A stretch of DNA of 32,761 nt from Candidatus Dadabacteria bacterium (lineage in GTDB: Bacteria; Desulfobacterota_D; UBA1144; Nemesobacterales; Nemesobacteraceae), in the NCBI GenBank assembly GCA_009837205.1, contig VXTZ01000016.1:1-32761 (forward strand). Reading direction: 5' to 3'. A program made the translations under genes and the position numbers. The notes below the pieces were generated by a model that was given only the letters and a program-made list of their open reading frames with translations, searched no databases and had not been told where the DNA came from. Each line of letters opens with the position of its first letter. Within the stretch, counting starts at the first letter, position 1. This document shows positions 3,155 through 18,323 of the stretch, one piece after another.

Positions 3155-4585
3155 ATGGAGAGAGTGGTAACGGAAGTAGCGGTAATAGGGGCGGGCCCCG
3201 GGGGATATCCCGCGGCGTTTGCCCTCGCCGACAAGGGAAAGAAAGTAACGCTTATAGATCCTGAGCTAAACCCCGGAGGAGTCTGTCTCTACAGGGGATG
3301 TATACCTTCAAAGGCCCTTTTGCACGCGGCGAAGGTGGCCGAGGAGGCTAGGGACGCGGCGGATTTCGGCCTTAGCTACGGAGAACCGGAGATCGACCCC
3401 GAGAAGCTTTTTTCCTGGAAAGACGAGGTGGTCTCCAAGCTAACGGGCGGGCTCAGGACGCTTGTTAAGGCCAGAAAAGTGAATTACCTGCGGGGAAGGG
3501 CGTCTTTTACCTCTTCCGGCACCCTTCGCGTTGTAACGGCTTCCGGCGAGGAGCGGGAAGTAGTGTTCGAAAATGCCATTATCTCCACAGGTTCCGTTTC
3601 GAGGAGAATACCGGGAGTGGATTTCGGTTCCCCGAACGTGGTCGATTCCGACGGCGCTTTGTCCCTAGGGGAGATTCCGAAAACCCTGCTTGTGGTGGGC
3701 GGAGGTTACATAGGCCTTGAGCTTGGAACGTTTTTCTCTTCTCTCGGCACCGAGGTCACGGTTGTCGAGATGCTTTCCGGGCTCGTACAGGGGGTTGACA
3801 GGGATCTTGCGGTGGTGCTTAAAAAGAGGCTCGATCGGAAATTCCGCTCTATAATGCTTGAAACAAAAATAGTTTCTATAAGTGAGTTAGACAACGAAGT
3901 TCAAGTTTCATTTGAAGTCGATGGGAAAAGCTTCCAGGAGAAATACGAAAAGGTCCTGATCTCGGTCGGAAGAGTACCGAACACGGAAGGTCTCGGCCTT
4001 GAAAACACCCGGGTCGAGGTGGACGGGAAGGGCTTTATAGAGACGGACTCCCAGAGAAAAACGGCCGATCCGGCGATTTTTGCAATCGGGGATGTTGCCG
4101 GGGAACCCATGCTTGCCCACAAGGCGACGTATGAAGCCAAGATCGTGGCCGAGGTCATAACCGGGGCCAAGACCCACTATGACCCTAGGGCCGTTCCGGC
4201 GGTAATCTTTACCGATCCCGAAATCGCCTGGTGCGGGATTACCGAAAGCGAAGCCAGGGAAGCAGGGATGGAAGTGAATGTGTCTAAATTTCCGTGGGCT
4301 GCATCGGGCAGAGCCCTTACGCTTAACAGGACCGATGGCCTGACGAAGCTTATAACCGATAAGGGGACCGGGAGAGTGGTCGGCGTCGGAATTGTCGGAC
4401 CGCAGGCGGGGGAGTTAATATCGGAATCCGTGCTGGCAATTGAAATGGGCGCGACTGCTGAGGATATAGCTTTTTCAATACATCCTCACCCAACCCTGAC
4501 CGAGACCATTATGGAAGCGGCAGAAGGCATATACGGGGCAAGCACTCACATTATGAAAAGGCGTCCGAGAAAGAAGTCACGGTAG
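3155..4585 (+). CDS. lpdA: Dihydrolipoamide dehydrogenase (E3)
   Basis: FAD-dependent E3 that reoxidises dihydrolipoamide with NAD+. The 476-aa length is normal for the family. The FAD-binding GAGPGG motif is at residues 12-17 and the redox-active disulfide is C44-LYRG-C49 followed by IPSK; the usual filler is LNVG or LNRG, so Tyr-Arg here is a little unusual. A second nucleotide-binding GGGYIGLELG follows (NAD), then the FAD-contacting AIGDV, and the catalytic His445/Glu450 pair in HPHPTLTE. It is the third gene of the PDH operon, 6 nt after aceF, so it is most likely the E3 of this complex and may also serve other 2-oxoacid dehydrogenases. About 100 bp with no recognised gene follow before the convergent acetyltransferase. 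Confidence 0.96.
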   Translation: MERVVTEVAVIGAGPGGYPAAFALADKGKKVTLIDPELNPGGVCLYRGCIPSKALLHAAKVAEEARDAADFGLSYGEPEIDPEKLFSWKDEVVSKLTGGLRTLVKARKVNYLRGRASFTSSGTLRVVTASGEEREVVFENAIISTGSVSRRIPGVDFGSPNVVDSDGALSLGEIPKTLLVVGGGYIGLELGTFFSSLGTEVTVVEMLSGLVQGVDRDLAVVLKKRLDRKFRSIMLETKIVSISELDNEVQVSFEVDGKSFQEKYEKVLISVGRVPNTEGLGLENTRVEVDGKGFIETDSQRKTADPAIFAIGDVAGEPMLAHKATYEAKIVAEVITGAKTHYDPRAVPAVIFTDPEIAWCGITESEAREAGMEVNVSKFPWAASGRALTLNRTDGLTKLITDKGTGRVVGVGIVGPQAGELISESVLAIEMGATAEDIAFSIHPHPTLTETIMEAAEGIYGASTHIMKRRPRKKSR

Positions 4586-4688
4586 GCATAACACAGAAAA
4601 GCACCCCGACATTATCAATCCTGGAATGCAGGGAAGACGCCGCGGCGGGACTTCTGGCGCGAACCAGAGGCGGATAAACTGACCTTTT

Positions 4689-5177
4689 TCACGACAGCTT
4701 TGAGAAGGCGGGTGCGTATTCGATACGCGCTCCCTCGAAGCCTCTTCCCGCGAGAGCCAGTCCCATCAGGTAAGGTCCGGCATATCGGCAAGACATACCC
4801 TCCACGGTTTTTTGGCTGAATCCAAAACGCCGGTAATAGGGCGGATCGCCAAGTACTGCGACCGCCGTCCAGCCATCATCCCTTGCCCGTTTGAGCCCGT
4901 CCTCGATCAGGGTAGCGGCAATTCCTTGGCGGCGTCTGCTTTCTGTAACTGCGACCGGACCCAGGGCCAATGAGCCGGACGGCGCGAGCAGTCTGGAGAA
5001 AAGGGCTTGGCCGATGACTTTCCCACCTTCTACGGCGACCAGGGAGAACACCACATCGCCGTCTTCCCGCAACTGTCGTACGAGTTCCGCTTCAGAAGGA
5101 GAAGGGAAGGCCTCAAGCAGAAGTTCTTCGACCCCCTCCCGGTCACTCTCTGTCTCAATCTGTATATCTGTTATCAT
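4689..5177 (-). CDS. GNAT family N-acetyltransferase (YhbS-like)
   Basis: A 162-aa single-domain GNAT acetyltransferase that would use acetyl-CoA; its substrate is not known. The core is visible: beta strand LALGPVAVTESRRRQGIAATLIEDGLKRA contains the acetyl-CoA pyrophosphate loop (RRRQGIA, the Q/RxxGxG/A motif), followed by VAVLGDPPYYRRFGF, typical of the YhbS/predicted N-acetyltransferase subgroup. The start has no evident Shine-Dalgarno; a possible 37-codon ORF (5155-5268) overlaps it in another frame and could couple translation. It converges with lpdA and sits at the border of an AT-richer patch. Confidence 0.88.
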   Translation of the reverse strand: MITDIQIETESDREGVEELLLEAFPSPSEAELVRQLREDGDVVFSLVAVEGGKVIGQALFSRLLAPSGSLALGPVAVTESRRRQGIAATLIEDGLKRARDDGWTAVAVLGDPPYYRRFGFSQKTVEGMSCRYAGPYLMGLALAGRGFEGARIEYAPAFSKLS

Positions 5178-5268
5178 TTGGAGATAGGGCGCCAGGGTCT
5201 GCTCGCCTTATTGAAAGAAGTTCTTCATATTCCAGTCTAAGTTGTTTCTTGCTCATTTTGTGGTTCAT
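5155..5268 (-). CDS. Possible small ORF (37 aa) overlapping the GNAT start
   Basis: A short reading frame begins with ATG at 5268 (second in-frame ATG at 5256), reads MNHKMSKKQLRLEYEELL and ends at 5155, overlapping the start of the acetyltransferase by 23 nt. Its charged helical composition and the overlap with a gene that lacks its own ribosome-binding site suggest translational coupling. The ribosome-binding signal is weak (GGTGA close to the ATG), and no family is recognised. It could equally be a chance frame or a remnant. Confidence 0.25.
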   Translation of the reverse strand: MNHKMSKKQLRLEYEELLSIRRADPGALSPNDNRYTD

Positions 5269-5472
5269 CGTCACCGTTTAATAATAACATACCTGAAAAT
5301 TGAAGGAATCTCAATGGGTTATATTAATTTAAGACAATGAAATAAAAAAGGCATTTTTCCTCTTTATTGCCTAAAACCCTGCCTAATCCTGACTATAGAA
5401 CCTACTAGACATCACTATAACAGAGCAGGATAATTACAATGCTTTTGATTCGGAATCTAAAGAGAAGATAGA
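5269..5472. other. AT-rich intergenic region, no gene seen
   Basis: This gap between the GNAT gene and the PD-(D/E)XK-like gene is clearly richer in A and T than the PDH operon before it. It contains runs such as TAATAATAACATA and AATAAAAAAGG. No convincing ORF, RNA gene or terminator was found. It probably carries the promoter of the downstream gene, but no single -35/-10 pair stands out. Confidence 0.4.
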
Positions 5473-6348
5473 ATGAGTTTATCGGAAACAGAGAACTGGG
5501 ATTCGGAGAAGGTGTATCGTACTGATTCCGGCGATATGGTTCGGAGCAAGCAAGAGAGGTTTGTTGCCAATCTTCTTATCTCAGAGGGTATTTCCTTTGA
5601 ATATGAGAGGAAACTGTCTAGCAGGGATGGATCTTTCCGTTACCCAGACTTTACCCTCTTTATTAACGGTGAACAGTATTACTGGGAACACTGGGGAATG
5701 GTTGATGATTACTCTTACAGACAATACATTGCCAAGAAGGTCAACTGGTATCGTGAGCATGGCTACTATGACTATTTGATTCAGACATGGGGAGGGGGCG
5801 ACAGAGACTTGAGAGGACAGGTTTTAGCCGAGTTGTACAAGTTGAGGAAACCTAAACGCAGGAAAATTGGTTACAAGCCTGTTTCCGATTCCCATGTTGA
5901 CTGGAAAACGGGACATGAACGCTTGACGGAAAAGTTAGAACAGACGGTTAGGCGTAAAATGCTTCGGCCCAAGGCTGGGAAGAAACTTAGGGGCAAAGCA
6001 ATACCAAAGTCTCCCCGTGACCAACAACTTGAAACAGCCCGTAGGCCTGAAGAAGAGGACTTTATTAGTGAAGATAGCGGACAGAACACGCGGGGATGGG
6101 TCATACCCGTTGCTATAATCTTAACACTTTTTCTTCTCGGTGCTTTCTTTGGTTCTCTACAAGTGCCTGCACCCATTACTAAATCGGAAGTGCCGGAAGC
6201 CGTTTCACAGAAGCGAGAATCGGAGAAAGAGTTGCAACTAGCAAAAAGACCTAATTCAATTACCCGAGAGATTAAGACTGAGAAGCCGATAACGGAAAAG
6301 AAGGAAAAAAAAGAGATGTTTTATATGGGAATCAAGATATCTCAATGA
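5473..6348 (+). CDS. Predicted PD-(D/E)XK nuclease-like protein with a transmembrane segment
   Basis: A 291-aa protein with no named family recognised. Residues 1-125 look like the compact PD-(D/E)XK endonuclease domain found alone or attached to helicases: VRSKQERFVANLLISEGI with Glu28, YPDFTL with Asp59, then YYWEHWGM with Glu72, and a KKVNWYREHGYY helix (Lys88/Lys89) that may supply the lysine. A basic linker follows (about 120-205, many Lys/Arg), then a hydrophobic segment of about 22 residues near 207-230 (WVIPVAIILTLFLLGAFFG), then a Lys/Glu-rich tail. A membrane-tethered nuclease domain is odd. AAGAGAAG precedes the ATG as a possible RBS. The gene is AT-richer than its neighbours and stands alone, which suggests horizontal transfer. 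The nuclease fold is inferred from motif order only. Confidence 0.7.
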   Translation: MSLSETENWDSEKVYRTDSGDMVRSKQERFVANLLISEGISFEYERKLSSRDGSFRYPDFTLFINGEQYYWEHWGMVDDYSYRQYIAKKVNWYREHGYYDYLIQTWGGGDRDLRGQVLAELYKLRKPKRRKIGYKPVSDSHVDWKTGHERLTEKLEQTVRRKMLRPKAGKKLRGKAIPKSPRDQQLETARRPEEEDFISEDSGQNTRGWVIPVAIILTLFLLGAFFGSLQVPAPITKSEVPEAVSQKRESEKELQLAKRPNSITREIKTEKPITEKKEKKEMFYMGIKISQ

Positions 6349-8832: not shown

Positions 8833-8953
8833 GTATTATATAGTTTTCAATGCATGTTTGGAATTCCGTCTTTGGTCTGTGGAGATTAACTGCTCTTCTC
8901 TGACAAAAGAAACAAGGACTTCCCTGCAGGCGAAACAAAGGAGCGGTCTGATT

Positions 8954-10591
8954 ATGACGCTGAAATCGGGACTACACTTCACTGAGCGAAACGGGACGAA
9001 CAAGTTTCCCATCGGAGTTCTTTTCTTTCTGCTGACCGTTTTTCCTGCGGTTTCCTATAGCGGGGCGGTTACGATCAAGGCGATATACGCCGACGTTCCC
9101 GGAGTGGGGTTTAATGATGCGGCAGGGTTTACGGATGAGGAAAGGGCGCTGCTCGCCGATAACGGCAATAACGCGAGCACGCTCGGGGAAGCGAGAAAAA
9201 ACGCCTTTGAGCACGCCGCCGGTCTGCTTGAACGGAAGTTGCCGGGTCAGAACACGATCCGGGTCGAGGTGTCGTTCGGGTCCTTTGAGGATGAAAACAC
9301 GGTTGCCACGACTTATATGAGAAACCCCGTAAGCTTCGGTCCCGAAGAGCTGTTGCACATAGCGTACCCGCCGGCGCTTGCGGAGAAAATCGCGGGAAGG
9401 GCTTTAATAGATGAATCTGTGGCTCACTTTATAGTGAAATTCTCAAGGCGCTTGGACTTCCACTACGGCTTTCGCGGGGAGGTGTCGCCGTTTTCAATAG
9501 ATTTCGTCGCCCTAGTCACACACGAAATTATTCACGGGCTCGGCTTTCATTCCTCCCTTGAGGAAGATGGCTCTTTTCCAAGCGCAACCCTTGATGTGAC
9601 TGGCGGAACCCGGAGTTTTTCGCTTGACGTGCCGGAGTGGCAGAGAATCTACGACGTACAGATGTATTCGGAGGAAGACGGTGAACTTATCGTTGATCTT
9701 CCGCCGCGGGACAGGGAGCGGGCCATTACTTCTGACACCGGTCTTCTGTGGGACGGAACCGCGCGGCCCGGAGCGGAAAATTCGTGCAGCTACGGACAGC
9801 GCATGGCCGAACTTAAATCTACGGGCGTAGCCCCGGACGGAAAACCCCGGCTCTACGCTCCCCCGACTTTTGAAGAGGGCAGCTCCATAACCCACGTTCA
9901 TACGGACGCGGAGGATATCATGGAATACCTCTACCCCTTTCCCGTGGACATGGACCTGAGTCTTGCCATGCTTAAGGACATGGGCTGGGAAGTAAGCGAC
10001 GGAGGCTTTCCGCCTTCCTGCGTGCCGACCGGAATAAGCGTTACGCCGACTTCTGGACTTGTGACCACGGAAGGGGGCGGGACGGCCGCGTTTCAGGTGA
10101 AGCTTGAATCAGAACCGATAAGCGACGTCATAATTCCCCTGCGAAGCAGCTATCCGTCTGAGGGAACGGCCGACACCCGGGCGCTTTCGTTCACGCCCGA
10201 TGACTGGGAGGTTGCGCAGACCGTGATGGTAACCGGCATGAACGACAGCGAGGAGGATGGCGCCAGGCGCTACGCTATTGTGCTTGAGCGGGCGCAGAGC
10301 AGGGACAGATTCTATGACGGCTTTGACCCTGACGACGTGTCGTTAATCAATCAGGACAATGATCCGGAACCGGATACCCCTTCGCCGGGTCCCATGCCGC
10401 CACAGGGAGAGGAGGCGGGACAAGGCGGCTCCGGGTGCGCAATCGCCGCGGAAGAGCCGGTGCGAGATACGTCTCGAAGCGGGGTGCTTGCCCGGTTTTT
10501 GCCCGCTGCGCTCCTTGTTTTCGCAATTTGGTGCAGAAGCCTGCGAAGAGAAAAGCGGCACCTCATCTGGGGGAATTCTTTTTCTGATTAA
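8954..10591 (+). CDS. Secreted zinc metalloprotease-like protein with C-terminal sorting-type tail
   Basis: The start is ATG 8954, preceded by AAGGAG (8938-8943); the longer frame from 8858 adds only a hydrophilic stretch. The 545-aa protein has a signal peptide (PIGVLFFLLTVFPAVSYSG, cleavage near residue 36) and a metalloprotease region with HEIIHGLGF (His190, Glu191, His194), the HExxHGLGF zinc motif of uncharacterised secreted proteases. A later Met-turn-like LKDMGWEV follows. Residues about 357-475 form a beta-sandwich repeat (GISVTPTSGLVTTEGGGTAAF...VMVTGMNDSEEDG) common in surface proteins. The C terminus has a Pro-rich spacer, GSGCAIA, a hydrophobic helix (LARFLPAALLVFAIWC) and basic residues RSLRREKR: a tripartite tail like JDVT-CTERM/Cys-type sorting signals. 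Predicted location is the cell envelope. Substrate unknown. Confidence 0.82.
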   Translation: MTLKSGLHFTERNGTNKFPIGVLFFLLTVFPAVSYSGAVTIKAIYADVPGVGFNDAAGFTDEERALLADNGNNASTLGEARKNAFEHAAGLLERKLPGQNTIRVEVSFGSFEDENTVATTYMRNPVSFGPEELLHIAYPPALAEKIAGRALIDESVAHFIVKFSRRLDFHYGFRGEVSPFSIDFVALVTHEIIHGLGFHSSLEEDGSFPSATLDVTGGTRSFSLDVPEWQRIYDVQMYSEEDGELIVDLPPRDRERAITSDTGLLWDGTARPGAENSCSYGQRMAELKSTGVAPDGKPRLYAPPTFEEGSSITHVHTDAEDIMEYLYPFPVDMDLSLAMLKDMGWEVSDGGFPPSCVPTGISVTPTSGLVTTEGGGTAAFQVKLESEPISDVIIPLRSSYPSEGTADTRALSFTPDDWEVAQTVMVTGMNDSEEDGARRYAIVLERAQSRDRFYDGFDPDDVSLINQDNDPEPDTPSPGPMPPQGEEAGQGGSGCAIAAEEPVRDTSRSGVLARFLPAALLVFAIWCRSLRREKRHLIWGNSFSD

Positions 10592-12831: not shown

Positions 12832-14508
12832 ATGCTTGTTGAACTCAGGCTTAAGAATTTTGCCATAATAGACGAAATTTCGATCAATTTCGGGGCAAAT
12901 CTGAACATAATTACCGGAGAGACGGGCACGGGGAAATCCCTGATTGTCGATGCCATAAACGTAATCCTCGGTGACAAGTTTACTGCGGACCACGTAAAAT
13001 CAGCCGACAGGCAGACATCGGTAGAAGCCCTTTTCGAGGTTCCCGGCGATTGCGGTATCGGGGAGAAGCTTGAGCAGCTGGGTATCGGGGACCAGGAGGG
13101 CGAGCTTGTCATAAAAAGGGTTTTTAACCCGGGCGGGAGGAACAGGATTTATATAAACGGTTCGATGGCGACGCTCGGGACGCTCTCTCGGGTGACCGAC
13201 GGGCTTGTTAACATGTTCGGTCAGCATGAACACCAGAGTCTTCTTAAGAAAAGCAATTATTTAAGTTATATAGACGCTTTTTCTCAACTTGAACATGAAG
13301 TCTACGCATACAAAGCCTCCTACGCAGAACTCGTGCGCGCGGAGAATGAGCTTGAGGCACTCAAGAAAAAAGAACAGGAGGGGGCGGAAAAAGAGGATTA
13401 TCTGAGGTTCCAGGCTGAAGAGATAAAAAAGGTATCCCCGGCGCCGAACGAGGATTCCGAGCTTGAGGCGGAGAGGGTAAGGCTTGAGAACTCAGAGAAG
13501 TTCTCATCTTCGCTCACAAGCGCGACCGGGCTTGTGTACGAGGGAGAGAGCTCGGCGGTTGGTTTTCTAAAGCAGGCCCTTTTGGATCTTGAGCGGGTTT
13601 CAGACCTTGATTCATCTCTCGGAGAACTTCGCGACAGGATCGCGGCCATACTTATAGAAACCGAAGATGTTTTCTACGGTCTGAGTGAATTCGCGGGAAA
13701 GATAGAACACAACCCCCAGAGGCTTGAAGAGGTGCTCTCGAGGCTTGAAGAGATAAGCAGGCTTAAGAGGAAGCACGGGGATTCGATCGAGGAGATAATA
13801 AAAAAGCAGCACGAGATCGAATCCGAGCTTGAAGGCCTTGAGAATTCGGCCGAGATGCTTGAGGAAATTGAGAGAAGAAGGGATTCCCTGAGGGAGAAGG
13901 TTTCCGCTGTCGCCTCTTCGATTTCGGCCGCAAGAAAAGCGGGAGCCGGGCGGCTTCAGGAACTTTTCTCCGGGCAGGCCGAGTCGGTCGGGCTTAAAAA
14001 CGCCCGTTTCGAGGTGGAATTCTCGGAAAAGGACCTCTCGGGGGACGGCAAGGACAGCGTGCAGTTTCTTTTCTCCGCCAACCCGGGCCAGACTCCGAGG
14101 CCCGTTAACAGGGTCGCTTCCGGAGGAGAACTCTCAAGAATAATGCTTCTGTTTAAAAGCTTTGTTTCCACCGGCGATGCCGGCTCGATCTTCATATTTG
14201 ACGAGGTGGATGCCGGCATAGGGGGAGTTGTGGCCGAGAGCATAGGGGAGAAAATAAGGAGTCTCTCCAATGAAAGCCAGGTAGTGTGCATAACGCATCT
14301 GCCTCAGGTCGCGAAATTCGCGAACACCCACCTGCTTGTGGCGAAGGAGTTTGGCGAGGGCGGTACGGATGTCTCTGTTAATGCGCTTGGTGAAGAGGAG
14401 AGGGTCTTGGAAATTGGCAGGATGCTTGCAGGGAAAAGTGTGTCCGAAAAGACCTTTGAAGTTGCCCGCGAACTCATAAAAGAAGCCGCTCGAGGTTCCC
14501 TGCCGTAA
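12832..14508 (+). CDS. recN: DNA repair protein RecN
   Basis: SMC-like ATPase that holds broken DNA ends during recombinational repair. The start is set at ATG 12832 (MLVELRLKNFAIIDEISI), where family similarity begins; the frame runs 14 codons further up without support. The 558-aa product has Walker A GETGTGKS (29-36), the ABC signature NRVASGGELSRIML and Walker B IFIFDEVDAGIGG in the C-terminal half, joined by two long coiled-coil arms rich in Glu, Lys and Leu (about 150-370). The final VVCITHLPQVAKFAN motif is typical. The gene ends 15 bp before the left inverted repeat of the neighbouring unit. Confidence 0.96.
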   Translation: MLVELRLKNFAIIDEISINFGANLNIITGETGTGKSLIVDAINVILGDKFTADHVKSADRQTSVEALFEVPGDCGIGEKLEQLGIGDQEGELVIKRVFNPGGRNRIYINGSMATLGTLSRVTDGLVNMFGQHEHQSLLKKSNYLSYIDAFSQLEHEVYAYKASYAELVRAENELEALKKKEQEGAEKEDYLRFQAEEIKKVSPAPNEDSELEAERVRLENSEKFSSSLTSATGLVYEGESSAVGFLKQALLDLERVSDLDSSLGELRDRIAAILIETEDVFYGLSEFAGKIEHNPQRLEEVLSRLEEISRLKRKHGDSIEEIIKKQHEIESELEGLENSAEMLEEIERRRDSLREKVSAVASSISAARKAGAGRLQELFSGQAESVGLKNARFEVEFSEKDLSGDGKDSVQFLFSANPGQTPRPVNRVASGGELSRIMLLFKSFVSTGDAGSIFIFDEVDAGIGGVVAESIGEKIRSLSNESQVVCITHLPQVAKFANTHLLVAKEFGEGGTDVSVNALGEEERVLEIGRMLAGKSVSEKTFEVARELIKEAARGSLP

Positions 14509-14523
14509 AGTGGTATGGAAAAA

Positions 14524-14570
14524 CCGGCTGAATTCAGGGAATTACCGTTTTAAGTAACCGGCACTCCTAA
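14524..14570 (+). repeat. Left copy of a 47-bp inverted repeat
   Basis: This sequence is repeated in inverse orientation at 15950-15996 with 45 of 47 bases identical (differences at two positions near the outer end). It contains GAATTCAGG and CGTTTTAAGTAACCGG. The copies lie just outside the stop codons of recN and fic and bracket the AT-rich unit. No flanking target-site duplication was found. Confidence 0.85.
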
Positions 14571-14627
14571 AATACTCCTGTGAGTAACTTGTAATGGTTT
14601 TCTGAGTATGGGAGACTTTATGTAAAA

Positions 14628-14700
14628 GGCCCCAACGGCTTTCGAGACCGTGTCTCTGGTGTTGCCGTCACCAGCGCTTGACCATCTCAACTATGGGGCT
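14628..14700 (-). ncRNA. tRNA-like RNA, 73 nt, with enlarged anticodon loop
   Basis: Read on the minus strand, this folds as a cloverleaf. The acceptor AGCCCCA/TGGGGCC gives 6 pairs plus an A-C mismatch at 1:72. U8 and A9 are present. The D arm GTTG-AGATGGTC-AAGC has canonical 4+8+4 geometry with A14 and G18G19 but a poorly paired stem. The anticodon arm CTGGTG/CACCAG has 6 pairs around ACGGCAA. A 4-nt variable region follows, then the T arm ACGGT-CTCGAAA-GCCGT with T55, C56 and A58. The anticodon loop is either 9 nt or has an extra stem pair, and U33 is replaced by C. Four Ts follow. It may be a degenerate or mobile-element tRNA, or a tRNA mimic; if the 6-bp stem is used the triplet would be GGC. 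Confidence 0.45.
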
Positions 14701-14756
14701 TTCTCTTTATCCTACTTGACGTGATTCTTTAGCTGTCAATAGCATTTCCAAGGGTT

Positions 14757-14768
14757 TTTTGTTATAAT
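14757..14768 (+). promoter_or_regulatory. Extended -10 promoter of the four-cysteine gene pair
   Basis: TGTTATAAT (14760-14768) is a perfect TATAAT with an upstream TGn extension, which can act without a -35 box. No good -35 hexamer lies at the right distance. The predicted start is about 14775, exactly at the foot of the long leader stem. Confidence 0.6.
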
Positions 14769-14775
14769 CATTTCC

Positions 14776-14900
14776 GTTCGTAGTGCAAAGAGTACCCGCT
14801 AGGTCGGGTCTCTGTGAATACAAAACCCATCTGGGAAATAAGCAGAAAGCCAAATCTCTTTGTGCTACGAACAAGGCCCGACGCCTATGTGTCGAGTCAA
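14776..14900 (+). ncRNA. Structured leader RNA with a 17-bp stem, upstream of the first four-cysteine gene
   Basis: GTTCGTAGTGCAAAGAG (14776-14792) pairs without a gap with CTCTTTGTGCTACGAAC (14856-14872), 17 pairs including two G-U wobbles. The wobbles lie side by side where an exact DNA repeat would be complementary, so pairing is kept at the RNA level. Inside are hairpins ACCCG-CTAGGT-CGGGT (14794-14809) and CCC-ATCT-GGG (14826-14835). Downstream CGAC/GTCG (14879-14894) forms another hairpin just before the RBS GGAG (14901-14904). No known riboswitch class, retron or ribozyme was recognised. It may control translation of the first gene or be a free small RNA. Confidence 0.55.
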
Positions 14901-14912
14901 GGAGTAATTAAT

Positions 14913-15212
14913 ATGAATTTTGGTGTGGGTATTATGGCTTTACCGCTTTTGTTGGCTACTTCTCTTATGGCTGGTGTGGATTCGAGAGCAGCTACTTGTA
15001 GCGATAGAGAATACTCTGTGTTCATAGAGTGTCTTAATATGGGTAAACAATACAAAGAAGCGCAAGAAAAGCCTTGGTTATACGAGGAATGGGAAATTGA
15101 CAGTCTTGAAAAAAAGGGTGCAGAAAAGTGTGTACCGTTCTCACGTTTCGACATATTTGAAGCTTGTATGGATAGAATGTTTAGAGAAAACTTACCAATT
15201 GCGCCAGATTAA
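14913..15212 (+). CDS. Small secreted four-cysteine protein, first of a tandem pair
   Basis: The start is ATG 14913, with RBS GGAG at 14901-14904; the frame is open from 14814 but that part is the structured leader. The 99-aa product has a signal peptide (MALPLLLATSLMAGVDSRA, cleavage near residue 26) and a mature part of about 73 residues with Cys29, Cys40, Cys73 and Cys85. It aligns with the next gene along its whole mature part: CSD at the first Cys, a C-x10-C pair, an acidic/aromatic YEEWEIDSLEKK block (LYSDWEVQNLTN in the partner), then the third and fourth Cys. The four Cys could form two disulfides in the periplasm or outside. No family is recognised. It is AT-rich and sits in the inverted-repeat-bounded unit. 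Confidence 0.75.
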   Translation: MNFGVGIMALPLLLATSLMAGVDSRAATCSDREYSVFIECLNMGKQYKEAQEKPWLYEEWEIDSLEKKGAEKCVPFSRFDIFEACMDRMFRENLPIAPD

Positions 15213-15243
15213 AAAAAGATCAAAGGGAGGTGTAGTTTGGCGT

Positions 15244-15543
15244 GTGACATTACTCACCCTCACCATACTTCTCTTACTCGATCTAATAAGACCACTACAC
15301 ACTAATGCCGAAACAACAAAGTGTAGCGATAAAGCACTCGCTATCTACGAGGATTGCTTAACCGTAGAAGAGGAACTAATTGAAATGTACTACGACTTAG
15401 ACTTGTATAGCGATTGGGAAGTTCAAAATTTGACTAATCGCTATCAGAAATGTGAAAGCTTCAAGCAGAAAGAGTCTAGATATGCGGATTGTGTAGGAAG
15501 ACACACTTTTGGGGATAAGTGGTATAAAATGTTTCCTGAATAA
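15244..15543 (+). CDS. Small secreted four-cysteine protein, second of a tandem pair (GTG start)
   Basis: The likely start is GTG 15244, after GGGAGGTG (15225-15232); the open frame extends to 15097 inside the first gene but has no other signal. The product is again exactly 99 aa: a hydrophobic signal sequence (LLTLTILLLLDLIRPLHTNAE), then Cys27, Cys38, Cys70 and Cys83, spacing C-x10-C-x31-C-x12-C against x10/x32/x11 in the first copy. The signal peptides are unrelated while the mature parts align, so this is an old duplication, not a recent copy. It lies 31 nt downstream and is surely cotranscribed. Function unknown. Confidence 0.72.
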   Translation: MTLLTLTILLLLDLIRPLHTNAETTKCSDKALAIYEDCLTVEEELIEMYYDLDLYSDWEVQNLTNRYQKCESFKQKESRYADCVGRHTFGDKWYKMFPE

Positions 15544-15549
15544 AAAAGT

Positions 15550-15620
15550 GGGGTTCAACATAAAACAGCACTTCGCCGTAATCGGAAGCGGATGAAGTAA
15601 GCTAACACTTGGTTGACCCC
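15550..15620 (+). other. Structured 3' region: nested hairpins after the four-cysteine genes
   Basis: GGGGTTCAAC (15550-15559) pairs with GTTGACCCC (15612-15620) with one bulged base. Inside, ACTTC (15570-15574) pairs with GAAGT (15594-15598), enclosing CCG-TAAT-CGG. There is no T-tract, so it is not a standard terminator. It runs directly into the tRNA-like element at 15629. Confidence 0.4.
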
Positions 15621-15628
15621 TAAATCCC

Positions 15629-15720
15629 GGTTCCTAGGGCACTGAACGCAGTTAGCGAGAACTGGTAGAATCCTGATTCTATGACCTAACTGGTGGGTTT
15701 GAATCCCACTCCTAGGAACC
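15629..15720 (+). ncRNA. Second tRNA-like element with a clear T arm and acceptor-like stem
   Basis: GGTTCCTAGGG (15629-15639) pairs with TCCTAGGAACC (15710-15720), an 11-bp closing stem. Directly inside its 3' side is a textbook T arm: GTGGG-TTTGAAT-CCCAC (15693-15709). The middle can fold as CAGTTAG (15649-15655)/CTAACTG (15686-15692) enclosing TAGAAT-CCTG-ATTCTA, or as two separate hairpins; no normal D and anticodon arms can be drawn. Acceptor, a D-loop-like single strand, one long arm and a T arm resemble the tRNA-like domain of tmRNA or a decayed tRNA. No CCA is encoded. Confidence 0.4.
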
Positions 15721-15727
15721 GGTTTTA

Positions 15728-15785
15728 ATTTCTATAAATGATAGAAATGGACGATCTGAGGGTGGTTTTTCCTGCCGTGAGGCAG
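15728..15785. other. Two short perfect hairpins
   Basis: ATTTCTAT-AAATG-ATAGAAAT (15728-15748) is a perfect 8-bp hairpin, and CTGCC-GTGA-GGCAG (15772-15785) is a 5-bp hairpin with a GNRA loop. ACCGGTTTTAAT (15718-15729), at the edge of the tRNA-like element, recurs inverted as ATTAAAACCGGT at 15842-15853. No ORF of note is present. The block may be the end of a mobile element joined to the tRNA-like 3' end. Confidence 0.4.
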
Positions 15786-15813
15786 ATTCTTTACACCCGA
15801 CGAGCAAGTGCGT

Positions 15814-15888
15814 ATTCTCATGATTTCGGATGCCAATTCTCATTAAAACCGGTCGGTGATTCTCACTGAATTCGGACATCCGGTTCTC
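15814..15888. mobile_element. Tandem 22-23-bp repeats resembling an IS21-family end (relic)
   Basis: ATTCTCA begins at 15814, 15836 and 15859, and each copy is followed by a similar YTGAtTTCGGa or TTAAAACCGG stretch; a degenerate fourth copy (GGTTCTCTC) lies near 15882. Serial direct repeats of about 20 bp at the termini are a feature of IS21-family elements, and the wording (TGAGAATC...TGTCCGAATTCAG on the minus strand) recalls such ends. No transposase is present, so it would be a solo relic. The resemblance is from memory. Confidence 0.4.
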
Positions 15889-15949
15889 TCTTTTTTTCTT
15901 CTTCAAAACAGACTTTACCACGTCAGTAATTTTCAGTAGAGTGGGGGTC

Positions 15950-15996
15950 TTAGGAGTGCCGGTTACTTAAAACGGTAATTTCCTGAATTCAGGCGG
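15950..15996 (-). repeat. Right copy of the 47-bp inverted repeat
   Basis: Inverse copy of 14524-14570 with two mismatches. This copy contains the perfect palindrome CCTGAATTCAGG (15982-15993). It ends 2 bp before the fic stop codon. Confidence 0.85.
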
Positions 15997-15998
15997 CT

Positions 15999-17546
15999 TC
16001 ACTCTTGGTCGAAACCGGCGAACCCCTCTGCCACTATAGTTTCAAGTGTGGCAACCTGGCCTTCGGTAAGCTCTGGGAATTCTTTTTTGCGGCGTTTCTT
16101 GGGAAAGATGCCTCCGTTTTGGCGAATGAACATGATGATGTCTTCCGCTGTCCGGTTCGACACATCAAAGGCGTTTATGATCCGCCTCGCGGTGGCATCA
16201 TGGCGTTTCAGATAGTCAATTTCGCGCGGCAGGTCGGATTCTATCGTTTGCAGGATACAGCCGTAGAGAAATTCCGCTTCGTTCGTGCAGTCGTAATAGC
16301 GGTAGAGATCCAAGGTATCGTTTGTTACTTCCACATTACCGTCCGGCAGCGCCCTCCAGTCTATGAACTGCATCAGGGGGCCCGAATGCGCCCGCAACGC
16401 AGCTCCGTAGTCGTCTATACGGTTCAGCATTACCGATGAGACGGGAAATACCATCCGTGGAGGCGTGAATCTGCGCTCCGCGAGGACTTGATGAATCAGG
16501 CAGCGGTGCAGGCGCCCGTTTCCGTCGGTAAACGGATGGATATATATAAACCCGAACGCCACGCAGGCGGCATGAAGAACGGGGTTGACGCCTGAGTTGC
16601 GCATACGGTCTCCGCATTCGTTAAGTGTGGTCATTACACGCTCGACATCGTCGTGACGCGCGCCGATAAACTCGGGCAGGGGTTCATAGTTGCGGTTGCG
16701 ACCGCCGAGAAACACCTCTTCGGTTCTGTATCCCGTGGTTCTTCTGGATTGATCGTTGCCGATCAGGATGCTGTGGAGGCGATAGATTTCCGTATGCCGA
16801 AGGGGCCTCTTCCCAGCCTCCATAACCGCGCGTCCCCATCCCTCGAGGCGATTGACCGGCGGACGTTCCCCCTCGATCTCAAAGCTTGCCCGGCTGTCTT
16901 CAAGCAATACGAAGCTTGCGGCGCGAGCGGTGAGTTGCGCGCCAGCTTTCCCGATTGTGTCCCGGGTTTTTGCTGAAAGGTCGAGAGCAATCATTTTTTC
17001 AAGCTTCGGAGTTCGCCTTATGACAGGACACAGCTCCCCGGTACCCAGAAGATTGTCACGGACGCGGTGTCGTGGTGAAATCAGCCTCTCGCCCGTATAG
17101 TAGCGGTCCGGGTCGATGGCTTCGACGGCCGTGGCCGCCGGGGCGTCTGCAATGTCAAGGCGCCTGCCGGTCAGAGTCTCAAAGAAGAACCATATCCTCC
17201 GTGTGGTGATCCCCCTCGGTTTAGCGCGGATCATTTTGACAAGTGCGGTTTCGGGAACCGCCTGGAGAATTCTTTTAAGGACCAGAAGATCGATCGTTTC
17301 ATGTCGCATTGCGAAGGTCAGGTGTCCTTCGAGCGTCGACTCCGGGCGATACCTCTTGTCATAGATATTCCAGGCGCCGTCGCTTCGTCTGTTTCCTCGA
17401 ACGTGCCTTTGCGAAACGCAGGAGAGATTGCGGACTGGCGCGGCGACGTCAAGCGAGTGGACCAAGGCGGACCAGCCGACCAGCTCTGTACCCTGTGGAA
17501 GGGGACTGCCCTGAAAGAAATCCGGTGTTACGCTCTGTATTCGCAT
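15999..17546 (-). CDS. Fic family protein, class II, predicted AMP-transferase
   Basis: A 515-aa Fic protein. The catalytic motif is HPFTDGNGRLHR with His337 to Arg345, a full HxFx(D/E)GNGRxxR, so it should adenylylate a hydroxyl side chain of a target protein. The inhibitory motif lies N-terminal to the Fic core: Ser221-FEI-Glu225-Gly226, fitting (S/T)xxxE(G/N), which defines class II self-inhibited Fic proteins. YRTEEVFLGG and the substrate flap region precede the motif. The C-terminal about 90 residues (RRIINAFDVSNRTAEDIIMFIRQNGG, then KKRRKKEFPEL) look like a helix-turn-helix-type module. The ATG has AAAGGA upstream. The promoter carries a phased TCGA operator array, suggesting self-regulation. 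No antitoxin partner is present, as expected for class II. Its target is unknown. Confidence 0.9.
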   Translation of the reverse strand: MRIQSVTPDFFQGSPLPQGTELVGWSALVHSLDVAAPVRNLSCVSQRHVRGNRRSDGAWNIYDKRYRPESTLEGHLTFAMRHETIDLLVLKRILQAVPETALVKMIRAKPRGITTRRIWFFFETLTGRRLDIADAPAATAVEAIDPDRYYTGERLISPRHRVRDNLLGTGELCPVIRRTPKLEKMIALDLSAKTRDTIGKAGAQLTARAASFVLLEDSRASFEIEGERPPVNRLEGWGRAVMEAGKRPLRHTEIYRLHSILIGNDQSRRTTGYRTEEVFLGGRNRNYEPLPEFIGARHDDVERVMTTLNECGDRMRNSGVNPVLHAACVAFGFIYIHPFTDGNGRLHRCLIHQVLAERRFTPPRMVFPVSSVMLNRIDDYGAALRAHSGPLMQFIDWRALPDGNVEVTNDTLDLYRYYDCTNEAEFLYGCILQTIESDLPREIDYLKRHDATARRIINAFDVSNRTAEDIIMFIRQNGGIFPKKRRKKEFPELTEGQVATLETIVAEGFAGFDQE

Positions 17547-17549
17547 TGT

Positions 17550-17688
17550 TCGAAGATCCTTTATGCCTGTCGAAATATGCTATATAAATTCCAATTATGT
17601 CGAGTTTCCATATTTTATCTTTCATAATGTCGAAAATCAAGGATTTATGTCGAAAATTATATTATTGATGTTAGAAATGTCGAAAACC
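17550..17688 (-). promoter_or_regulatory. fic promoter with six phased TCGA-centred operator sites
   Basis: On the plus strand (A/T)TGTCGAAAA-like words have their TCGA at 17570, 17600, 17630, 17650 and 17680, and a sixth, TGTTCGAAG, has TCGA at 17550, next to the fic ATG. The spacings are 20, 30, 30, 20 and 30 bp, all whole helical turns. A promoter on the minus strand, TTGATT (17640-17635), 17 bp, TAAAAT (17617-17612), has one site inside its spacer, two upstream and three downstream. This is the arrangement of a cooperative repressor or autoregulator array. Which protein binds is not shown by the sequence. Confidence 0.7.
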
Positions 17689-17759
17689 GATGTTCAGGTG
17701 AAATCCAGAATCTGGTCTCGCAGAACTCTTCTGCTCTGCCTTTCTATGTGGAATGGGAG

Positions 17760-18323
17760 TTAGCTGATCGTCTTCGTCTCATAGGAGCAGAAAACCACCG
17801 CGGTGAGAACCGTTGTCCAGAGCCCGTTTTTATCTCCCACTGCAGTCTGCGTTACGTTTCTGCTTTTTACCTTGTGCCCGCTTATCTCCCATATGTCCTT
17901 CTGCTCGTCGTAACTTTTATCGGGATCAAAGGGGGCGTTAAGCGTGGTGGCGAGCATGTAGGCGGCAAGATCTTCGGCGTATTCTCCCGCGAGGGTCTCT
18001 TTCTGCCCGTAGCTGTGGTGTTCAGATATGTATCCGTAGCGCGTTTTGTCCTTCGGGATCGCGAGGCCGGTGGACGCGGCGATAAGCCTGCTGGGTTCGT
18101 TTGTGGAATTCTCGCTCATTACCACAAACGTTATCTGCCCGGGGGAGAGCATGGTGAGTCCCTGGTTTCTGCTTACCAGCTGACAGCCCGGGGGAAATAT
18201 GCTTGAAACCTTGACCAGGTTGAACTGCGCGATACCCGCGTTCCTTAAGGCGAGCTCGAAGCTTGAGAGCTTTTCCTTGTGCTTGCCCACGCCCTTGGTT
18301 ACAAAAGCTTTTGTCGGGGTCAA
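17760..18323 (-). CDS. pdaD: Pyruvoyl-dependent arginine decarboxylase (TTG start)
   Basis: Converts arginine to agmatine for polyamine synthesis, using a pyruvoyl group made by self-cleavage in place of PLP. The 187-aa protein has [14 protein letters not shown]: cleavage is expected between Ser40 and Ser41, leaving pyruvate on the larger chain. The downstream [21 protein letters not shown] and [19 protein letters not shown] blocks are typical of the family. The start is TTG 18323, with AAGGAG 7 nt upstream; no ATG fits. A TTGACA promoter lies in the 72-bp gap shared with divergent nfo. The fic operator array is downstream. No agmatinase or agmatine deiminase is in the window. Confidence 0.93.

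Follow-up and report, generated by a model that had tools for sequence, protein, structure and literature searches.

The window analysed here is a stretch of 32,761 bp of Candidatus Dadabacteria DNA (contig VXTZ01000016.1). Just outside the stop codons of recN (14508) and fic (15999) lie the arms of an inverted repeat (14521-14570 and 15950-15999), which are complementary at 47 of 50 positions; the chance expectation for such arms is about 1e-18 in 2.5 kb. A preliminary description made from the letters alone had reported 47-bp inverted repeats at this place. The repeats and their position are real, but the repeat proper is 34 bp long and is followed by an 8-bp palindromic target duplication. 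The true element extends from 14537 to 15983 (1447 bp). Its terminal inverted repeats, GGGAATTACCGTTTTAAGTAACCGGCACTCCTAA on the left (14537-14570, forward strand) and, read inward, GGAAATTACCGTTTTAAGTAACCGGCACTCCTAA on the right (15950-15983, reverse strand), pair with one another and are identical at 33 of 34 positions (23 of the first 24). They are flanked by the target-site duplication TGAATTCA, which matches exactly between 14529-14536 and 15984-15991. A scan for 8-bp direct repeats around inverted repeats gave this as its single solution here, with the ends GGGAATTACCGTTTTAAGTAACCG and GGAAATTACCGTTTTAAGTAACCG. The target is palindromic, so a duplication length of 8-10 bp is possible, and this is also why the repeat seemed to run about 13 bp beyond the 34-bp ends. 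The GC content of the unit is 42%, compared with 53% on both flanks.

The forward strand of the unit carries a structured leader RNA (14776-14890) followed by two small ORFs. A TATAAT sequence at 14763-14768 (forward strand) is the probable -10 box of the leader RNA; a similar box lies upstream of most better-scoring copies of this RNA, at roughly equal spacing, and a consensus promoter scan did not list the box in the window as a full promoter. The two ORFs (14913-15212 and, with a GTG start, 15244-15543) each encode a probably secreted protein of 99 aa with four cysteines. The two proteins are paralogous (26% identity, with the four cysteines conserved in a shared pattern) and both have signal-peptide-like N-termini. 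Pfam, NCBIfam and PHROG contain no match to them. Relatives occur in five of the 14 genomes of the genus and nowhere else in the order. The second protein is modelled as a short helical hairpin with moderate confidence (mean pLDDT 72.6), and no significant sequence match for the small protein came up among solved structures. Our guess is that these proteins have a secreted binding or inhibitor role.

Several other features accompany the operon. A strong hairpin follows the second ORF (15549-15620, forward strand; z -4.3) and is attC-like with an imperfect right core box. Two tRNA-like folds, one at 14631-14702 (reverse strand) and another with a 10-bp outer stem at 15629-15720 (forward strand), fold better than their shuffles (z -3.0 and -3.5, respectively), but neither is recognized by ARAGORN or the Rfam tRNA model, and tRNA genes in the unit were rejected. 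A truncated IS21-family end (15809-15933, reverse strand) is 96% identical to IS ends located at contig ends of the sister genome G010, and a related IS21-type end adjoins istB/istA-like ORFs in L052. The presence of this relic at the right end indicates that the unit was rearranged. The preliminary description had thus been right about the AT-rich interior, the two small secreted genes and the long RNA stem, which is the conserved leader RNA; its IS-like repeats are the IS21 remnant, and its tRNA-like folds survive as folds only.

The empty form of the recN-fic junction is present in three sister genomes that have fic at this place (G002, G010, and G008). The bare junction reads ...CCGGC(C/T)TGAATTCA(A/G)GCG... 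with TGAATTCA in single copy, while the window has it on both sides of the unit. The whole interior and both repeats are missing from these empty sites. The unit was inserted between recN and fic with duplication of its target. Such empty sites had been named in advance as proof of mobility, and conservation in place in all relatives as its refutation; the region is not conserved in place. Elsewhere in the genus, recN directly adjoins an arginine decarboxylase-like gene or has unrelated DNA behind it. Hence, this junction varies among the genomes, and fic counts as an accessory gene. The interval between recN and the decarboxylase gene (14508-17760 in the window; also L018 and L023) holds fic, unrelated inserts, or nothing.

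Copies elsewhere with the same ends had also been anticipated. Neither the same genome nor the genus yielded a second copy that has both ends, in collections that consist mostly of MAGs, which often lose IS copies at contig ends. When the ends were searched for in the genus and the order, the matches were the window's own ends, a relic beside acnA and weak scattered matches, and the weak matches in the rest of the order were no more frequent than in the control. The exact end pattern is absent from viral and GTDB genome contigs, and plasmids gave no match. The relic is one decayed 57-bp left end beside acnA in G000 (G000:C27:36278) and G012 (G012:C5). A full element at this site was rejected, as the end is single and decayed and no partner or duplication was seen. 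The acnA/fabF insertion in which it lies (L011; G000:C27:36278-38500) also contains a small membrane protein and a hipBA-like pair and is absent from the other genomes examined.

The class of the element was recognized by way of its cargo. Other Dadabacteria contain complete IS1595-family transposons with a transposase that matches DDE_Tnp_IS1595 and Zn_ribbon_IS1595, exact 8-bp duplications and, in several cases, ends starting with GGGAAYTAY (GGGAATTAY-type). In four of them the passenger module is that of the window unit, consisting of a structured leader RNA and a gene for a secreted protein or lipoprotein. These are L092 (G008:C2; 3082 bp, duplication TAAATTTT, ends GGGAATTAC), L180 (G008:C1; 5028 bp, duplication TAAATTTG, ends GGGAATTAT), L183 (G001:C137; 2461 bp, duplication CTTTTTTT, ends GGGGATAAT, GGGGATAATA), and L090 (G006:C8; 2464 bp, duplication TAGTTTTA, ends CGYAATTAT, CGYAATTATCCC). 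The gene in L183 encodes a 135-aa homologue of the window proteins. L180 also includes a methylase-like gene (4009-5178), and another DNA methylase-like gene lies downstream of the leader RNA in L079. In 7 of 22 cases, an IS1595 transposase is no more than 3 kb away from the leader RNA, compared with 0.29 expected. The first eight bases of the window ends, GGGAATTA, are common to L092, L180, and the right end of L164; the similarity of the window ends to those of autonomous elements is confined to these bases, plus TTAAGT in one element. The genome of the window itself has five IS1595 transposase matches at four places. No transposase ORF is found within 14537-15983 among the ORFs or by profile searches, as the preliminary description had noted, and the unit is therefore not an autonomous IS1595 element. 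The end sequence that would be expected to flank a partner transposase gene is GGGAATTACCGTTTTAAGTAACCGGCACTCC, and neither an autonomous element nor a transposase with the full 34-bp window ends was found in the genus and order searches. IS1595 elements are known to generate 8-bp, AT-rich target duplications (PMC8101967; PMC7835479), as seen for the window unit, and both IS copies that carry passenger genes and cassettes without a transposase are recognized categories (PMC3129680). Two transposon ends stand back to back in L084 (about 1391-1420; GGGAATTACCAAGTTAAGTTGATAATTCCC) and, directly behind the leader RNA, in L106, forming a near-minimal relic beside truncated leader-RNA genes.

The leader RNA is a divergent relative of sRNA-Xcc1 (RF02221). 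The segment 14803-14890 matches the Rfam model of this family with E=0.0028 and 32.3 bits, which is below the gathering threshold of 53 bits. Four relatives match sRNA-Xcc1 only among the Rfam families (E=8.6e-4 to 0.011, 35-40 bits). In the reverse direction, the Dadabacterial model (R1) was run against ten phage and plasmid copies of sRNA-Xcc1; the best match had E=5e-11, nine were at 0.0012 or better and the tenth was at 0.37. The leader RNA is homologous to sRNA-Xcc1 in its core and helices, and is regarded here as related to the family without being filed as a member. Its outer P1 helix (14776-14792/14856-14872, forward strand) is 14-23 bp long across copies, many of which form the helix from different letters. 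The mean duplex energy of P1 is -23.7, compared with -8.1 when partners are swapped (0 of 20000 permutations), although the copies are related and such figures overstate their independence. The pairs of P4, P2, and P3 hold in 99% of cells, and three have changes on both sides. In most well-preserved copies P1 starts at a G about 7 nt after the TATAAT-like box, and the RNA itself therefore probably begins with P1. The P4 pseudoknot pairs GTCGGGT (14803-14809) with GCCCGAC (14876-14882) on the forward strand. Because a local hairpin can form instead on each side, the RNA may adopt alternative states.

The R1 model, built from nine copies, located the leader RNA at 31 places in 15 of the 44 genomes of the order, namely in 13 of the 14 genomes of the genus to which the window belongs and in the two genomes of a second genus. 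Across 58 genomes of the phylum, it occurs in these two genera only, out of 22. Most other copies have no inverted repeats around them within 1.5 kb. One contig labelled Poribacteria (L104, VXXH01000007.1) contains the same copy as Dadabacteria G006:C6; horizontal transfer to Poribacteria was rejected, and the contig is probably misbinned. In L010, a gene for a secreted metalloprotease-like protein (4649-6022) stands in an apparent operon behind a leader RNA copy, and its product is similar to another secreted metalloprotease-like protein, encoded elsewhere in the window (8858-10591).

sRNA-Xcc1 is reportedly a trans-acting sRNA. Five phages and five plasmids (L145-L149, L134-L138) make up the set of sRNA-Xcc1 copies that we compared. 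In all ten, the RNA lies shortly upstream of an ORF, and its 3' segment ends 50-71 nt before the start codon. The downstream genes are mostly of antirepressor type. They encode Ant in Aaphi23, Pmp3, and Rac-SA53, KilA-N in phage 4316, and BRO, Rha or Bro-N-linked proteins on plasmids; the remaining downstream ORFs are hypothetical. The 3' segment shows complementarity to the sequence immediately preceding the start codon (as in CCUCUGCUUGG/CCAAGCAGAGG of the Pseudomonas copy). Pairing with the own target exceeds pairing with swapped targets in the ten copies (p=4e-5), two of which rank low individually. These comparisons of sequence support antisense pairing in the phage and plasmid copies. 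Several Dadabacterial copies have 7-10 nt of complementarity between the 3' arm of P1 and the ribosome-binding site (CUCUUUG/CAAGGAG in the window), and the Dadabacterial copies as a set do not reach significance (p=0.15). A pooled test that includes the plasmid copies is significant, and it is the plasmid copies that drive it. Antisense control by the leader in Dadabacteria is therefore offered as a hypothesis. Nothing in the literature searched links sRNA-Xcc1 with antirepressors; the single paper there that mentions both sRNA-Xcc1 and the C4 RNA lists them next to each other. The arrangement and mechanism of the C4 antisense RNA have been described (PMC5320573).

The unit 14537-15983 is likely a non-autonomous IS1595-type element, that is, a mobile insertion cassette that would have been mobilized in trans, and its cargo appears to be an operon led by a leader RNA that probably controls cargo translation. 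Since the sister IS1595 transposons share its cargo, its 8-bp duplication, and its kind of ends, the unit is read as their transposase-less relative. A transposase supplied in trans by an IS1595-family transposon would have acted on the particular 34-bp ends of the unit, which start with GG, and would have inserted it at the 8-bp target TGAATTCA. The cargo would be self-promoted, with the TATAAT box driving a leader of about 115 nt of the sRNA-Xcc1 kind and the two paralogous secreted cysteine-rich proteins. The 3' arm of P1 may pair with the 5' arm of the helix or, alternatively, with the downstream ribosome-binding region, and this alternative pairing would control translation of the cargo by the logic of the phage C4 antisense RNA.

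Other explanations of the unit were weighed against these observations. It could be a MITE or mobile cassette of another DDE transposase family that makes 8-10-bp duplications, in which case the resemblance to IS1595 would be coincidental. The missing autonomous partner with identical ends and the ambiguous duplication length at the palindromic target leave room for this, but GGGAATTA, the 8-bp duplication, and the cargo are all as in IS1595 elements of the same genus, and we consider it unlikely. A further candidate is an integron gene cassette, or a pair of cassettes, in which the hairpin at 15549-15620 would serve as attC. This reading is suggested by that hairpin and by the occurrence of sRNA-Xcc1 in Xanthomonas integron cassettes beside symE (PMC12444791). 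It is very improbable, as the genome has no integron integrase (TIGR02249 matches XerC/D-like genes only, below cut-off), the right core box departs from attC and the unit ends in terminal inverted repeats and a target duplication, which cassettes lack. The preliminary description had offered, besides a passenger element, a 47-bp repeat inserted twice in inverted orientation; the two insertions would be independent and would bracket unrelated intergenic DNA by chance. The solitary relative of the repeat near acnA fits such a history, but the two ends share one duplication and the empty sites lack interior and repeats alike, which leaves it the least probable of these explanations. The passenger element, non-autonomous as had been proposed, accords with the empty sites, the single duplication, and the transposase-bearing relatives with similar ends and cargo.

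For the family as a whole, a broader reading stands at roughly even chances. The sRNA-Xcc1 family would be a C4-like antisense leader of mobile genes (phage antirepressors, plasmid BRO/Rha, and integron-cassette symE) and, in one genus of Dadabacteria, a recurrent control leader of IS1595 secreted-protein cargo that includes the window unit. The findings suggest that, in an uncultured bacterial lineage, regulatory RNAs of a class associated with phage antirepressors move together with transposon cargo. sRNA-Xcc1, so far taken as a trans-acting regulator, thereby gains a testable local function, translational control of the neighboring gene. The small, probably secreted four-cysteine proteins would form an unclassified family carried by mobile elements.

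The element class is already known, while transposon cargo led by a structured leader RNA, of the sRNA-Xcc1 type or otherwise, was not found described in the literature searched. The window unit differs from the IS1595 "transporter IS" in having no transposase and in its 34-bp ends without an identical autonomous partner. It resembles these elements and mobile insertion cassettes in its 8-bp duplication, GG-starting terminal inverted repeats, and passenger genes, and in its transposase-bearing relatives in the same genus with the same kind of cargo. The leader shares with sRNA-Xcc1 (RF02221) the core AAUACAAnACCC..GGGAAUAA, the inner stems, and the GUCGGG/CCCGAC outer pairing, and the models match both ways. 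It differs in its sub-threshold score and in its 14-23-bp P1, which begins at the predicted transcription start and replaces a short antisense hairpin. The C4 antisense RNA of phages P1 and P7 (RF01695) is a different Rfam family, its covariance model has no match at E<=1 in either the window or the phage loci, and pairing of the C4 kind is a hypothesis for Dadabacteria. The phage sRNA-Xcc1 copies, like C4, lie upstream of antirepressor genes and have a loop that is complementary to the ribosome-binding region of the gene behind them.
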